Assembly: GCA_018340805.1 (NCBI GenBank)
Contig: JACMZG010001863.1
Coordinates: forward strand, 58,276,477-58,340,476
Direction of reading: 5' to 3'
From: Microvelia longipes
Lineage: Eukaryota > Arthropoda > Insecta > Hemiptera > Veliidae
DNA: 64,000 nt
Positions 5,455 through 63,885 of this stretch are shown here, piece after piece. Numbering within the stretch: the stretch's first letter is position 1; every line of letters starts with the position of its first letter. The notes below the pieces were generated by a model that worked only from the letters and a program-made list of their open reading frames with translations, did no database searches and had not been told where the DNA came from. Made by a program: the position numbers and the translations under genes.

Positions 5455-27934
<22,480 letters not shown>

Positions 27935-42059: not shown

Positions 42060-43059
42060 NNNNNNNNNNNNNNNNNNNNNNNNNNNNNNNNNNNNNNNNN
42101 NNNNNNNNNNNNNNNNNNNNNNNNNNNNNNNNNNNNNNNNNNNNNNNNNNNNNNNNNNNNNNNNNNNNNNNNNNNNNNNNNNNNNNNNNNNNNNNNNNNN
42201 NNNNNNNNNNNNNNNNNNNNNNNNNNNNNNNNNNNNNNNNNNNNNNNNNNNNNNNNNNNNNNNNNNNNNNNNNNNNNNNNNNNNNNNNNNNNNNNNNNNN
42301 NNNNNNNNNNNNNNNNNNNNNNNNNNNNNNNNNNNNNNNNNNNNNNNNNNNNNNNNNNNNNNNNNNNNNNNNNNNNNNNNNNNNNNNNNNNNNNNNNNNN
42401 NNNNNNNNNNNNNNNNNNNNNNNNNNNNNNNNNNNNNNNNNNNNNNNNNNNNNNNNNNNNNNNNNNNNNNNNNNNNNNNNNNNNNNNNNNNNNNNNNNNN
42501 NNNNNNNNNNNNNNNNNNNNNNNNNNNNNNNNNNNNNNNNNNNNNNNNNNNNNNNNNNNNNNNNNNNNNNNNNNNNNNNNNNNNNNNNNNNNNNNNNNNN
42601 NNNNNNNNNNNNNNNNNNNNNNNNNNNNNNNNNNNNNNNNNNNNNNNNNNNNNNNNNNNNNNNNNNNNNNNNNNNNNNNNNNNNNNNNNNNNNNNNNNNN
42701 NNNNNNNNNNNNNNNNNNNNNNNNNNNNNNNNNNNNNNNNNNNNNNNNNNNNNNNNNNNNNNNNNNNNNNNNNNNNNNNNNNNNNNNNNNNNNNNNNNNN
42801 NNNNNNNNNNNNNNNNNNNNNNNNNNNNNNNNNNNNNNNNNNNNNNNNNNNNNNNNNNNNNNNNNNNNNNNNNNNNNNNNNNNNNNNNNNNNNNNNNNNN
42901 NNNNNNNNNNNNNNNNNNNNNNNNNNNNNNNNNNNNNNNNNNNNNNNNNNNNNNNNNNNNNNNNNNNNNNNNNNNNNNNNNNNNNNNNNNNNNNNNNNNN
43001 NNNNNNNNNNNNNNNNNNNNNNNNNNNNNNNNNNNNNNNNNNNNNNNNNNNNNNNNNNN
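42060..43059. other. assembly gap, exactly 1000 N
   Basis: An unbroken run of N of a round length is a placeholder, so the true distance between the flanks is unknown. The long frames reported across it are meaningless. Confidence 0.99.
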
Positions 43060-47605: not shown

Positions 47606-48376
47606 AAAAAAGTTATCATGGCAACCGAAGCAATTTTTTCTCCCGCTAATTACTTTGCACCTTTTAGATTCAGACTCTGGGTTAGGTACTAGTTTTATTT
47701 CCCTGCTAGAGGTAGAGAAGTACACATTTTCTTCCTTCTATAGGTTAATTATTGTTACTGACACCAATTTTATCTAAATCTGGATTTATTTTATCGGTTA
47801 ACTAAATAATGCTAAATATTTGCATTCTACGAAATTATGGCATTTTTGATTCTAAATTAGGCCTTTTGGATTATGGTTTATTTAAGGAAAATCATAATTT
47901 AATTTAGCTGAAAACATAACCCCAACTTTGGAAAAACACAAATTGCTCAGTTCTTTTTTGTGGTAGAAAATTGGAATTTTGTGAGCATGCAATATATAAG
48001 ACTGACCAGTCCATGCCTTGCGATTTTTTATATCATGATTGTCATCATGTCTTAATGAAAATTTTCTTATGCTTAGAAATGAAATTTTTTCCATGGTTTC
48101 AAAATCCAATCTCTACAGCTCTGAATAAAACGTACAGCAATTTTATCAGAATGACATTTTGATCAAATTTGGTTCCACAGTTCGAAGAATAAAACAAACA
48201 TTTTGTTTTATCAAATTTTGCGACGTCACTGGGTCGCTTATTAACATTATAGACTAAAACAAGAAAAGATTACAAACTTGATGATCGCAGGCCAAATCAG
48301 AGAATAAATATCACGTATACTCGAAAATTATACTTTATTGCATATGCATTTATCGTTTCGAGCGTTATTTTTCTGT

Positions 48377-48737
48377 CACAATATAATTGTGCGAGAGACA
48401 CCAATGCAATGTAAGAAGCAAATGATATGCTACACCTGGGAACTGTTTCATATTTTGAAATTCGTCATCGTTAATGACTTAACATAATGTCATATCCCAT
48501 TATATTTCGTTCTGTCTAACTCATCAGGGGATGAGTCTAAACCCAACTGTAGCCTACATAGTATTTTGCTTGTTACATGACCTAGGTGCCTTTCACACAA
48601 TTATATTGTGTTAACTATTCATGTTTGTAAATCTCGGTAGTATCAAATAATACTTATTTTCTCTTAGGAAGTAGGAAGTACAGCCCTAAGCAGGTGGAAA
48701 TAAGCTCAACTCTACAGAGGCAGGCTTCCCTTCGTAT
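48377..48737. mobile_element. insertion in the palindrome arm, hammerhead-element family
   Basis: It begins with CAATATAATTGTGCGAGAGA and includes ACAATTATATTGTGTTAACT and CTCGGTAGTATCAAAT, the ends of the family at 57378-57716. The right arm of the palindrome is uninterrupted at the matching point (complement reads CTGTCA/TTGGTACC). The hammerhead core is degraded: on the minus strand CTGATGAGTTAGAC is kept, but the second strand of stem II and stem III are lost. Confidence 0.75.
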
Positions 48738-50331: not shown

Positions 50332-50604
50332 GTCTATTGTATAATGAGAGAGTGCTAGAAAGACAAAATACAGGATACATATAAATAACAGTATAAAGAC
50401 TCGAGTGTATTGATAGAGTATATTAAGGGGCTATGCATGACTCAGCAGAACCCTGTAATACTGATTGACTTAAATCACATTACTATCATCACACTGACCT
50501 ACTAATACTCAACCATTATCAGCCATTTTGAGTGAACAACTAAAATAGGTTTCTAAAAATGGTATCGACAATTTACTATCGTACTATACAACACAATCTT
50601 CTAA

Positions 50605-52857
50605 CTAAGGCTGTGAGCTACCCGTACCTTTCTTACCAAGGTTGTGTGCTACCCGTACCTTTCTTACCAAGGCTGTGTGCTACCGTATCTTACCTAACCC
50701 GTACAAGGTGTGTGCTACCCGTACCTTTCTTACAAGGCTGGTGCTACCTACCTTACCATCAAGGTACTTTCTTACACAAAGGTTGTGTGCTGTACCCTAA
50801 GCTGTGTGTAACCCGTATTTTCTTACCAAGGCTGTTACCCGTACTTTCTAACAAGGTTGTGTGCTACCCGTACCTTTCTTACCAATCGTACCTTTCTTAC
50901 CTGTGTGCTACCCGTACCTTTCTTACCAAAGGCTGTGTGCTACCCGTACCTTTCTTACCAAGGCTTGTGGTGCTACCCGTACCTTTCTTACCAAAACAAG
51001 GCTGTGTGCTACCCTACCTTCTTACCAAAGGCTGTGTGTTACCCGTACCTTTCTTACCAAAGGCTGTGTGCTACCCGTACCTTTCTTACCAAGGCTGTGT
51101 GTTACCCGTACCTTTCTTACCAAGGCTGTGTGCTACCCGTACCTTTCTTACAAGCTGTGTGCTACCCTACCTTTCTTACCAAGGCTGTGTGCTACCCGTA
51201 CCTTTCTTACCAAGGCTGTGTGTTACCCGTACCTTTCTTACCAAGGCTGTGTGTTACCCGTACCTTTCTTACCAAGGCTGTGTGCTACCCGTACCTTTCT
51301 TACCAAGGCTGTGAGCTACCCGTACCTTTCTTACAAGGCTGTGTGCTACCCGTACCTTTCTTACCAAGGCTGTGTGCTACCCGTACCTTTCTTACCAAGG
51401 CTGTGTGCTACCCGTACCTTTCTTACCAGGCTGTGTGCTTACCCGTACCTTTCTTACCAAGGCTGTGAGCTACCCGTACCTTTCTTACCAAGGCTGTGTG
51501 CTACCCGTACCTTTCTTACCAAGGTTGTGTGCTACCCGTACCTTTCTTACCAAGGCTTGTGTGCTACCGTACCTTTCTTACCAAGGCTGTGAGCTACCCG
51601 TACCTTTCTTACCAAGGCTGTGTGCTACCCATACCTGTGCTACCCGTACCTTTCTACCAAGGCTGTGAGCTACCCGTACCTTTCTTACCAAGGCTGTGTG
51701 CTACCCGTACCTTTCTTACCAAGGCTGTGAGCTACCCGTACTTTCTACAAGGCTGTGTGCTACCCGTACTTACTTACAAGGCTGTGTTACCCGGCTGTGA
51801 GCTAACCCGTACCTTTCCTAAGCTGTGAGCTACCCGTACCTTTCTTACTACCGTACCTTTCTTACCAAAGGCTGTGTGCTACCCGTACCTTTCTTACCAA
51901 GGCTGTGTGCTACCCGTACCTTTCTTACCAAGGCTGTGTTTACCCGTACCTTTCTTACCAAGGCTGTGAGCTACCCGTACTTTCTTACCAAGGTTGTGTG
52001 CTACCCGTACCTTTCTTACCAAGGCTGTGTGCTACCCGACCTTTCATACCAAGGTGTGTGCTACCCGTACCTTTCTTACCAAGGCTGTGTGCTACCCGTA
52101 CCTTTCTTACCAAGGCTGTGTGCTACCCGTACCTTTCTTACCAAGGCTGTGTGTTACCCGTACCTTTCTTACCAAGGTTGTGTGCTACCGTACCTTTCTT
52201 ACCAAGGCTGTGTGCTACCCGTACCTTTCTTACCAAGCTACCCGTACCTTTCTTACCAAGGCTGTGTGCTACCCGTACCTTCTTACCAAGGCTGTGTACC
52301 TTTCTTACCAAGGCTGTGGCTACCCGTACTTTCTTACCAAGGCTGTGAGCTACCCGTACCTTTCTTACCAAGGCTGTGAGCTACCTGTACGTACCAAAGC
52401 TGTGAGCTACCCGTACTTACTAAGGCTGTGTGCTACCCGTACCAAGGCTGTGCTACCGTACCTTTCTTACCAAGGCTGTGAGCTACCCGTACCAAGGCTG
52501 TGAGCTGTACAAGGCTGTGTGTTACCCGTACCTTTCTTACCAAGGCTTACCCGTAGGCTGTGTGCTACCCGTACTTACCAAGGCTGTGTGCTACCCGTAC
52601 CTTTTACCAAGGCTGTGTGTACAAGGCTGTGTGTTACCCGTACCTTTCTTACCAAGGCTGTGTGCTACCCGTACCTTTCTTACCAAGGCTGTGTGCTACC
52701 CGTACCTTTCTTACCAAGGCTGAGAGCTACCCGTACCTTTCTTACCAAGGCTGTGTGCTACCCGTACCTTTCTTACCAAGGTTGTGTGTTACCCGTACCA
52801 AGGCTTTCGTACCTTTCTAACACGGCTGTGTGCTACCATACCTTCCTTATCAAGGCT
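50605..52857 (+). repeat. 31-bp tandem satellite, about 70 copies
   Basis: The unit contains GGCTGTGTGCTACCCGTACC followed by TTTCTTACCAA. Because 31 is one more than a multiple of three and the unit has no plus-strand stop, all forward frames stay open for up to about 250 codons; these are not genes. Variants have GAG for GTG, TTA for CTA, and many one-base losses. Confidence 0.96.
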
Positions 52858-52967
52858 TCTTATATTTTTTGGTTTGGGTATTTTATTTTTTATATTGTTA
52901 TTTTTTTTTATTTATTTTTTAATATATTGTCAAAAGATATTTTTGATGGTTTTTTGAACAGGTTTAT

Positions 52968-53157
<190 letters not shown>

Positions 53158-57129: not shown

Positions 57130-57370
57130 TTAAGAGATCTTGAAATATAGATATAACAGCAAGAGATGACAGTGGGGAGAAATCTTGAATTAGAGATACA
57201 GCACCAAGAGATAACACTGGAGAGAGATCTTGAAATAGAGGTATAGCACTAAAAGATGACAGTGAGGTGAGAGCTAAAATAAAGATACAGTACCAAGAGA
57301 TGACAGTGAGGAAAGTTTTTGAAATAGAGATAAAGCACCAAGAGATGGCAATGGGGAGACAGCTTGAAGA
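57130..57370. repeat. about 44-bp tandem repeat, 5 diverged copies
   Basis: Units contain AGATCTTGAAATAGAGATA, GCACCAAGAGATGACAGTG and GGGAGA with many differences. Confidence 0.8.
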
Positions 57371-57377
57371 ACAAGGT

Positions 57378-57716
57378 TAGTTGGCACAATATAATTGTGC
57401 GAGAGACACCAAGGAAATGTAACAAGCAAAATGCAATGTTACATCTGGGAACTGTTCCATCATTCGACATTCGTCATCATTGATGGCTCGACATAATGTC
57501 ATGTCCCACTCTGTTTCGTTACGTCTAACTCATCAGGGCGCCGACAGAGCCTGAACTCACTCCGACCTTCAATCAATTCCGAAGAATATAATGTGAAGTA
57601 CTTACCAGAGACGAGCGGTGCTCTCTTACCGCCATAATGCATGGCAAGCAAAACATATAGCATTTTGCTTGTTACATTTCCTTGGTGTCTCTCGCACAAT
57701 TATATTGTGTCAACTA
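57378..57716 (-). mobile_element. hammerhead-bearing inverted-repeat element, copy 1
   Basis: Ends of about 55 bp are inverted: TAGTTGGCACAATATAATTG on the left, and on the right the complement of the same sequence with A for G. They continue through GCGAGAGACACCAAGGAAAT and GTAACAAGCAAAATGC. The interior holds a hammerhead fold on the minus strand at 57509-57549. There is no open frame. Other copies are at 63232-63582, 63583-63860, 48377-48737 and a fragment at 6285-6405. Confidence 0.85.
57509..57549 (-). ncRNA. hammerhead ribozyme candidate, type III topology
   Basis: Minus strand: CTCTGT, C, GGCGCC, CTGATGA, GTTA, GACG, TAAC, GAA, ACAGAG. Stem III is 6 bp, stem II is 4 bp, the CUGAUGA and GAAA core is intact, and the nucleotide before the predicted cut is C17 after U16.1. 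Stem I would be GGCGCC, which cannot fold on itself with a loop. Confidence 0.7.
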
Positions 57717-58040
57717 TTCATGTTTTGCAAAACTCGGTAGTATCAAAATGATAAACAAGGTTAGTCTTTACGAAGAGGTAACATTCGGGCGGTTAAGTTA
57801 CTAACAATCTTACTCCTGCAACTACTATAGTCTTGTTATTTTCTTAGTCCTAAGTCTTTTGAGTTTGTTTGTATCAATTCACTTAATCTTGTAAGATAAT
57901 CCTATCAGATAATGATTTGGCTAATCGTATGTGCCATTTCTATGGGCTCATTTCTATATCAGTCTTTTCACAACTCCTTCGCATTTCCTTGAAGCGAGGC
58001 AACATATGGTTTATAAAAATGGGATCATGCTGTCATCTCT

Positions 58041-62929: not shown

Positions 62930-63140
62930 TGTGTATGGGAGCCATGGCACTACAGCCCGTACCTTAACATGTGTCTGGGAGCCATGGCACTACAGCCCGT
63001 ATGTGTATGGAGCCATGGCACTACAGCCGTACCTTAACATTGTATGGGAGCCATGGCACTACAGCCGTACCATGGGAGCCATGGCATACAGCCCGTACCT
63101 TAACATGTGTATGGGAGCCATGGTACTACAGCACGTACGT
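62930..63140. repeat. about 40-bp tandem repeat, 6 copies
   Basis: The unit contains GGGAGCCATGGCACTACAGC and CCGTACCTTAACATGTGTAT. Individual copies carry one-base losses, and two units are shortened. Confidence 0.92.
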
Positions 63141-63231
63141 TTATGATATGAGATCATTTCTAATGTTTAATGTGGTGATAAAACGAACAAAATTTTGTAT
63201 AACTATGCAGGAAAATAAAGTATTACTAACT

Positions 63232-63582
63232 ATATCATGTGATACTACCGAGTTTTGCAAAACATGAACAGTTGACACAATATAATTGTGCGAGAGACAC
63301 CAAGGAAATGTAACAAGCAAAATGCAATGTTACATCTGGAACTGTTCCATCATTTGACATTCGTCATCATTGATGGCTCGACATAATGTCATGTTCCACT
63401 CTGTTTTGTTACGTCTAACTCATCAAGGCGCCGATAGAGCCTGGACTCACTCTTACCTTCGATTAATTCCAAAGAATATAATGTGAAGCATTTTGCTTGT
63501 TACATTTCCTAGGTGTCTCTCGCACAATTATATTGTGTCAACTGTTCATGTTTTGCAAAACTCGGTAGTATCAAATGATATA
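63232..63582 (-). mobile_element. hammerhead-bearing element, copy 2 (internally deleted)
   Basis: Arms start near ATATCATGTGATACTACCGA and include TTTTGCAAAACATGAACAGT and the CACAATATAATTGTG block, mirrored at 63500-63582. The ribozyme region at 63399-63439 on the minus strand has lost core bases (TTGATGA and AAAA in place of CTGATGA and GAAA). Confidence 0.85.
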
Positions 63583-63860
63583 TGTTTTGCTTGCCATGCA
63601 TGATGGCGGTAAGAGAGCACCGCTCGTCTCTGGTAAGTACTTCACATTATATTCTTCGGAATTAATTGAAGGTCAGAGTGAGTTCAGGCTCTGTCGGCGC
63701 CCTGATGAGTTAGATGTAACGAAACAGAGTGGGGCATGACATTATGTCGAGCCATCAATGATGACGAATGTCGAATGATGGAACAGCTCCCAGATGTAGC
63801 ATTGCATTTTGCTGGTTACATTTCCTTGGTGTCTCTCTCACAATTATATTGTATCACTAA
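63583..63860 (+). mobile_element. hammerhead-bearing element, copy 3 (5' end missing)
   Basis: Opposite orientation to 57378-57716 and nearly identical from TTTTGCTTGCCATGCATGAT on; it ends with GGTGTCTCTCTCACAATTAT near 63850. It directly abuts copy 2, sharing the boundary near 63582. Confidence 0.85.
63689..63729 (+). ncRNA. hammerhead ribozyme candidate, type III topology
   Basis: CTCTGT (63689-63694) pairs with ACAGAG (63724-63729). C at 63695 is the expected cleavage nucleotide, GGCGCC (63696-63701) is stem I, CTGATGA is 63702-63708, GTTA and TAAC form stem II around GATG, and GAAA is 63721-63724. All conserved core positions are present. The loop differs from the 57509 copy (GATG against GACG). 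Confidence 0.72.
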
Positions 63861-63885
63861 CTAGTTTAAAATTTTTCTTCCGAGT

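Follow-up and report, generated by a model that had tools for sequence, protein, structure and literature searches.

The window analysed here is the whole stretch of 64,000 nucleotides from Microvelia longipes, and it holds four places of one dispersed repeat. The first insertion occupies positions 63233-63855. Comparison with the repeat unit, which is numbered from the base after the ribozyme cut site, resolves it into two arms joined head to head, with an outer end of type B on the left and one of type A on the right (both defined below). It is flanked by an 8-bp target-site duplication, with the left copy, ACTAACTA, at 63225-63232 and the right copy, ACTAACTA, at 63856-63863 (both plus strand). 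The minus-strand arm (63233-63490, the right limit being approximate) runs from end B at unit position ~200-203 back past the cut site to unit position ~261, and is made up of unit segments 1-203 and 261-316 in minus orientation. The plus-strand arm (63488-63855) comprises unit positions 109-316 and then 1 to ~160, where it stops at end A, behind the hairpin CACAAT-TAT-ATTGTG. A hammerhead motif lies at 63688-63730 on the plus strand. Its counterpart in the minus-strand arm (63398-63440, minus strand) has decayed: its letters have changed from CUGAUGA to UUGAUGA, from GAAA to AAAA and from CUCUGUC to CUCUAUC. Just left of the insertion, at 62932-63133, are six copies of a 26-nt repeat, TGTATGGGAGCCATGGCACTACAGCC.

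The second insertion (57382-57753) has ends A and B and a 12-bp duplication, AACAAGGTTAGT, at 57370-57381 and 57754-57765, and the letters of its hammerhead are intact on the minus strand at 57508-57550. The third (48374-48651) is older, 87% like the unit, and also has ends A and B. It retains the core bases at 48505-48535 (minus strand) and has lost stem III. The fourth place, 6286-6401 on the plus strand, is an old and degraded remnant of this element or a related one. Elsewhere the window contains exactly 1000 consecutive N (42060-43059), either a gap or sequence that was withheld, and a long degenerate minisatellite (50544-53000) that reads as protein-like repeats in several frames.

Every base of the type III hammerhead core is present at 63688-63730 (plus strand). 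From 63689 to 63729 the letters are CTCTGT and C, then, behind the predicted cut site, GGCGCC, CTGATGA, GTTA, GATG, TAAC, GAA and ACAGAG. Stem III has six base pairs plus one G-U (63689-63694 with 63724-63729), and stem II has four (63709-63712 with 63717-63720), closed by a GAUG loop. The predicted cut, between UC and G, lies at 63695/63696, a position which we take from the general hammerhead rule. All of this agrees with a first-pass annotation of this DNA, which had read the core bases, a 6-bp stem III, a 4-bp stem II and a UC cut site from the same letters at 63689-63729. It had also called the order type III, and the match to the Rfam family RF00008 and a core scan bear this out. It had left out helix I: the motif has all its core bases and not all its helices, because the hairpin of helix I is missing. 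The motif is a type III hammerhead without a folded helix I, as judged from the Rfam match and from pairing read off the sequence.

RF00008 matches 63688-63730 with 38.5 bits and an E value of 1.2e-6 in a search of 851 bases. The features of the class are all found: a CUGANGA and GAA core, a UH cut site, and stems II and III in type III order. An Rfam check had been proposed for the motif, and on the threshold it fails. The score stays below the curated gathering score of 48.5 bits, and a search of the whole window returns zero families at gathering score. The low score fits the missing helix I, and the likely reason for it is that only six bases, GGCGCC, stand between the cut site and the core. 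The core scan asked for a type III core with a stem II of at least 4 bp and a stem III of at least 6 bp, leaving helix I unconstrained. It matches the window twice, once per strand (63688-63730 and 57508-57550), and it finds no core in 150 simulated 64-kb first-order Markov windows. Because of these two cores, their absence from the simulations and the E value of the RF00008 match, the presence of a type III hammerhead core in the window is beyond chance. A scan of IMG/VR for the motif gave 0 matches, with entries from the same or a very near genome possibly excluded.

The type III order and the 4-bp stem II with a 4-nt loop are shared with plant LTR retrozymes and typical type III hammerheads (PMC7761336, PMC7936874, PMC6155905, PMC4918200). 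Typical type III hammerheads have a 6-bp helix I whose capping loop contacts loop II (PMC7761336, PMC7936874, PMC6155905), whereas here that hairpin is missing. Type III hammerheads are also described in animals, including insects, from termite, toad and fly (PMC7936874). In these helix I is longer than usual (PMC7936874), again in contrast to its missing hairpin here.

The carrier of the ribozyme is a unit of 316 nt with 42% GC. A first look at the host genome (664.6 Mb in 1470 contigs) gives 1861 candidate places, over which the unit is dispersed. The 40 of the 1861 that were scored match nearly the full query at 95-100%. Loci L001-L030 and L031-L040 are the best of the 1861 for a query with the ribozyme in it, and so are young, close copies. 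A further set, L060-L079, was chosen by ribozyme pattern. A copy may be less than one unit, a single unit or an array in which two to over 20 units follow one another head to tail. In most insertions two arms, one on the minus strand and one on the plus strand, meet head to head. Their lengths range from 60 to 7568 bp, and the join falls at scattered unit positions. The RNA fold of the circular unit is unremarkable (z -1.7).

Tandem units of a length within ~170-400 nt, one hammerhead in each and a GC content under 50% are traits of metazoan non-LTR retrozymes. The carrier resembles these in its tandem units of a few hundred bases, its GC content and its hammerhead per unit, and further in target duplications of over 4 bp and in the presence of Penelope-like elements in the same genome (PMC7229834). 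Metazoan retrozymes carry type I hammerheads (PMC7229834), whereas the order here is type III. The word "inverted" does not occur in the available text of that paper (PMC7229834). In plant retrozymes, unlike here, the units lie 600-1000 bp apart and have direct repeats taken as LTRs, along with 4-bp duplications (PMC7761336).

What takes the place of helix I? At 63696-63701 (plus strand) the sole bases between cut site and core are GGCGCC, a palindrome that cannot fold back on itself. The Rfam model pairs them as three loopless pairs, which is impossible for RNA, and a helix I hairpin with a loop contacting loop II is not found in these six palindromic bases. With one arm missing, the ribozyme may work only in pairs. 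The palindrome is able to pair with the same bases in a second motif, and two motifs could thereby share one GGCGCC/GGCGCC helix I as a double hammerhead, a structure proposed from its shape. In such a dimer each core would combine the substrate strand of one motif with the core strand of its partner. An energy model applied to the common 45-nt form (loop GACG) gives -31.1 kcal/mol for the double hammerhead versus -15.6 kcal/mol for two single hammerheads. The lowest two-strand fold is a different duplex at -33.6 kcal/mol, slightly below the double hammerhead, and the best monomer fold (-12.0 kcal/mol) is not a hammerhead.

Dimeric action has precedents. Weak metazoan motifs act as dimers via helix III (PMC7229834, PMC6155905), whereas helix I would be shared here. 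A search limited to open-licence papers found no hammerhead dimer that shares helix I. Lunse and others reportedly described in 2017 small Penelope hammerheads that cut as dimers and have one helix too short, and the arrangement proposed here would resemble them in both respects. Such dimeric Penelope motifs are minimal type I hammerheads (PMC7761336).

There is no covariation in GGCGCC: each variant in the fetched arrays is a mutation confined to one unit. Motifs that differ from GGCGCC at its third base number 212 in a search whose reversed control returned 0. Among the roughly 100 listed of these 212, most read GGTGCC, and the listed variants are mostly CpG decay. Third-base variants in the fetched arrays likewise stand as single units amid GGCGCC units. 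Two candidates for a compensatory change were rejected. One is GGTACC in locus L055, whose other arm reads differently. GGTACC is uncommon (2 of about 100 listed, of 212), and private decay is a likelier source for it than compensation. The other is GGGCCC in L072, a single unit amid GGCGCC units. No heritable compensatory change was seen, so that the shared helix I stays at the level of what the shape of the motif suggests. In several array units of L068 and L072 five bases replace GGCGCC, which resembles a slip of the copying enzyme. Two old copies, the window fragment at 6286-6401 and L033:1100-1554, have CAGTGCC before the core in common, and are perhaps an older subfamily with a different helix I.

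The conservation of the ribozyme was assessed outside the set chosen by ribozyme pattern (L060-L079), which is excluded from these tests. At the level of elements, with those under 93% identity left out, changed site-by-element cells number 0/250 in GGCGCC, 3/542 in the core, 3/415 in stem III and 7/499 in stem II, compared with 172/11373 in the rest of the unit. Of 171 unit copies, 127 (74%) keep the whole 42-nt motif unchanged, versus 56-73% for 11 control windows of equal length, and allowing the commonest variant in each raises these figures to 78% and 60-76%. Among 172 unit copies, 154 keep all 13 core bases (these per-copy counts drop segments under 90%). Per base, leaving out loop base 20, 0.92% of the ribozyme is changed, compared with 1.67% of unit positions 36-160 and 1.10% of positions 211-309. 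The difference from positions 36-160 has a p value of 1.9e-6, which overstates its significance since units are not independent. There is no clear difference from positions 211-309 (p 0.21). In other words, the ribozyme is conserved only slightly more than the remainder of the unit. The first-pass annotation had staked its hammerhead on an excess of intact cores over random decay, and a slight excess exists for the motif as a whole; per base it is clear against positions 36-160 and absent against positions 211-309.

Perhaps, then, the hammerhead is a relic, or is weak as a monomer or acts with protein help, and the pairing of GGCGCC has no role. This is entirely possible, if somewhat short of an even chance. 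It agrees with the absence of compensatory changes, with conservation barely above that of the rest of the unit and with the report that in vitro cleavage by a Penelope hammerhead depended on protein (PMC11167929), yet it sits uneasily with a GGCGCC that is unchanged in all 250 cells, with core bases intact in most unit copies and with a perfect six-base palindrome exactly at the place of helix I.

The ends of the insertions are informative about how the carrier moves. Outer ends fall at two places in the unit, A at positions 153-167 and B at positions 196-209, and both are 3' ends of the ribozyme strand. They are about 43 nt apart, and A sits at the 3' base of the hairpin CACAAU-UAU-AUUGUG. 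In all, 51 elements were found, of which 48 were counted after three cut by the end of a stretch had been dropped. Among these 48 insertions, 28 have one A and one B end, and none is A/A or B/B. The remaining 20 comprise 13 with one A or B end and an inner end, five with one such end and another position, and two with neither; two of the 20 read as A/B under other scoring. Dropping elements whose flanks contain N or whose duplication is shorter than 8 leaves 29, and 27 of these are A/B, including the second element of L047, which has a poor B match. The duplications of the two exceptions (L020 and L048) are probably spurious. The same picture comes from a separate set of 21 elements located through a ribozyme pattern: eight are A/B, none is A/A or B/B, and A/B also holds for all six whose duplication reaches at least 9. 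With both sets pooled, all 36 insertions whose two outer ends can be read are A/B, an outcome with a probability of 1.5e-11 if each end were chosen freely and evenly.

The target duplications of the 28 A/B insertions are 6-15 bases long (median 12), with 24 of the 28 at 8-15 bp and the other four at 6-7. All are longer than 4 bp, as in metazoan non-LTR retrozymes, and the 24 of 8 or more are 85% AT. Fixed ends and duplications flank even a 60-bp copy and single-unit copies.

A head-to-head inverted arm, an AT-rich target with a duplication of ~8-15 bp and a tail of 30-40 nt on one end (here about 43 nt, the distance from A to B) are traits of Penelope-type integration. Penelope insertions are marked by an inverted pLTR, by an optional 31-bp tail on one inverted pLTR and by duplications of 8-10 bp (Arkhipova and others 2013, PMC3846280). 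The Penelope protein of a lizard (Anolis) extends both cut strands (Frangieh and others 2024, PMC11167929). It starts inside the RNA in a stem-loop, and two start sites explain the tail; in vitro, ribozyme cleavage is dispensable for insertion and the same start sites are used on both strands (PMC11167929), two results that count against the scheme given below. The insertions described here are therefore like Penelope-like elements in their head-to-head arms, in the offset of the ends (30-40 nt there), in their duplications and AT-rich sites, in a start near a stem-loop and in a hammerhead within the element (PMC3846280, PMC11167929). Two points differ. Penelope-like elements encode the enzyme (PMC3846280, PMC11167929), unlike this non-autonomous unit, and their tail is optional (PMC3846280), whereas here the ends are never alike in 36 two-ended insertions.

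Penelope-like elements are present in the host genome. GIY-YIG frames gave 63 matches among 150 scored of 842 candidates, and one Penelope-like protein has RVT_1 and GIY-YIG in a single 564-codon frame, open at the edge of the stretch. Loci L058 and L057 are truncated copies, L058 of this kind and L057 of another family, in which only GIY-YIG was seen. Both have minimal hammerheads and a short head-to-head arm. The minimal hammerheads (CTGATGAAGACC..GGTCGAAA and CTGATGATGACC..GGTTGAAA) are found in both arms of the head-to-head insertions in L057 and L058, and a Penelope-like copy in L055 has one only. The longest duplication matches are 12 bp in L058 and 11 bp in L057, with shorter matches of 10 and 8, respectively, competing in AT-rich flanks. 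With these longest matches the end offset is, by our reading, about 32 nt in L058 and about 40 nt in L057. L055, the third locus tested for duplications, has only 8-base matches, none of them fitting. The layout of the insertions is best read as that of Penelope-like insertions. Sequence shared between the retrozyme and eight GIY-YIG loci examined (of the 63 matches) amounts to repeat copies in two of them and short chance matches. One GIY-YIG match, in L053, lies beside two long frames on opposite strands. On impression only, we take these frames to be perhaps virus-derived.

The best reading of the carrier is a non-autonomous retrozyme with Penelope-type insertion scars. Probably, a circular or multimeric RNA of the retrozyme is copied from both ends of the target by Penelope machinery, with cleavage, circles and the partner enzyme being the parts of this scheme that we infer. 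Existing arrays would be transcribed, and the type III hammerhead in each unit would cut the transcript between UC and GGCGCC. Most likely each motif would cut the strand of its partner while both share one GGCGCC/GGCGCC helix. A host ligase would close the monomers to circles, as the analogy of animal retrozymes suggests. A Penelope-like reverse transcriptase/GIY-YIG endonuclease would then cleave an AT-rich site on both strands. Each cut would prime DNA synthesis on the RNA template, one starting at A (~157-160), at the 3' base of the hairpin, and the other at B (~200-203), and synthesis would cover anything from a fraction of a lap to more than 20 laps. Finally, head-to-head joining of the two cDNAs would leave a duplication, in most cases of 8-15 bp. 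The genome shows the scars of these last two steps, whereas the enzyme and a circular template are inferred.

Penelope enzymes have been named a strong candidate for moving animal retrozymes (Cervera and de la Pena 2020, PMC7229834). The mover was left open in that 2020 paper (PMC7229834), and the scars described here suggest an answer in testable form: two fixed start sites, one per end. A more specific picture would be that a natural double hammerhead sharing helix I (and not III) circularises the retrozyme RNA, and that a two-headed Penelope enzyme primes rolling synthesis on one circle from both cut strands, each head using its own start site. This picture is tentative, plausible and still short of probable. 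If true, it would make the arrays a direct genomic record of rolling-circle reverse transcription. This retrozyme also makes dimeric cutting open to test.

What if the same retrozyme were moved by a LINE-type enzyme with twin priming? The window does contain a reverse transcriptase frame (9554-10510, minus strand, 318 codons, RVT_1), which we take to be LINE-type, and twin priming also yields head-to-head copies. However, LINE copies begin at the 3' end of the RNA, whereas the insertions here have two internal start sites and use one of each, as in the two Penelope-like copies. A LINE-type mover is therefore unlikely.

Comparison of the arms gives clues to the template that the Penelope machinery would copy. 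Units of the same arm differ by a mean of 0.66% (809 pairs), those in opposite arms of one insertion by 0.86% (301 pairs) and those of separate insertions by 2.5% (859 pairs); in these means long arrays weigh most, and elements under 93% identity are left out. The variable base 132 is uniform in 21 of 27 two-armed insertions and has mixed letters in six, including the insertion at 63233-63855. The low divergence between arms and the six mixed cases suggest that the two arms mostly, and not always, come from the same or near-identical RNA. Arms pass the cut site unbroken 162 times. Seven arm ends seemed to lie at the cut site, as if from run-off on cut RNA, and proved to be an artefact at the edge of the BLAST query: when the unit was rotated, five of the seven extend 5-16 nt further and two run on. 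From the many unbroken passages and the lack of true stops it follows that the template was closed or uncut at the cut site. Rolling synthesis on a circle would account for arms of many laps, and transcripts of existing arrays are a possible template instead. The long arrays, whose two arms stem from closely similar templates, would offer a way to measure in genomes the rolling reverse transcription of small RNA circles.

These same comparisons bear on whether the repeat is an ordinary satellite, spread by recombination or by rolling-circle DNA (extrachromosomal circles or Helitron-like capture). Dispersed tandem arrays of 316 nt would suit a satellite, and dispersed satellite-like repeats carried by Helentrons have been reported in an oyster, but a satellite would not be expected to show fixed ends and duplications around copies as short as 60 bp or one unit, nor arms that are more alike within an insertion than separate insertions are, and this origin is very improbable. 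The first-pass annotation was right that the carrier is transposable, but its identification as a MITE or foldback DNA transposon that happens to hold a hammerhead-like sequence is hardly credible despite the inverted arms and target duplications, given that equal terminal inverted repeats are not found in any of the 36 two-ended insertions (A and B differ in 36/36), that arm length varies, with insertions of 60-7568 bp, that the duplications (6-15 bp) have no single fixed length, and that the head-to-head join is scattered over the unit.

A separate feature of the genome was noticed on a chromosome-size contig (G000 C564), where several COX1-like stretches lie at 11.66-11.71 Mb (L049-L051). 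They are either recent nuclear copies or misassembled mitochondrial DNA, and one of them is free of stops over 488 codons in the invertebrate mitochondrial code.
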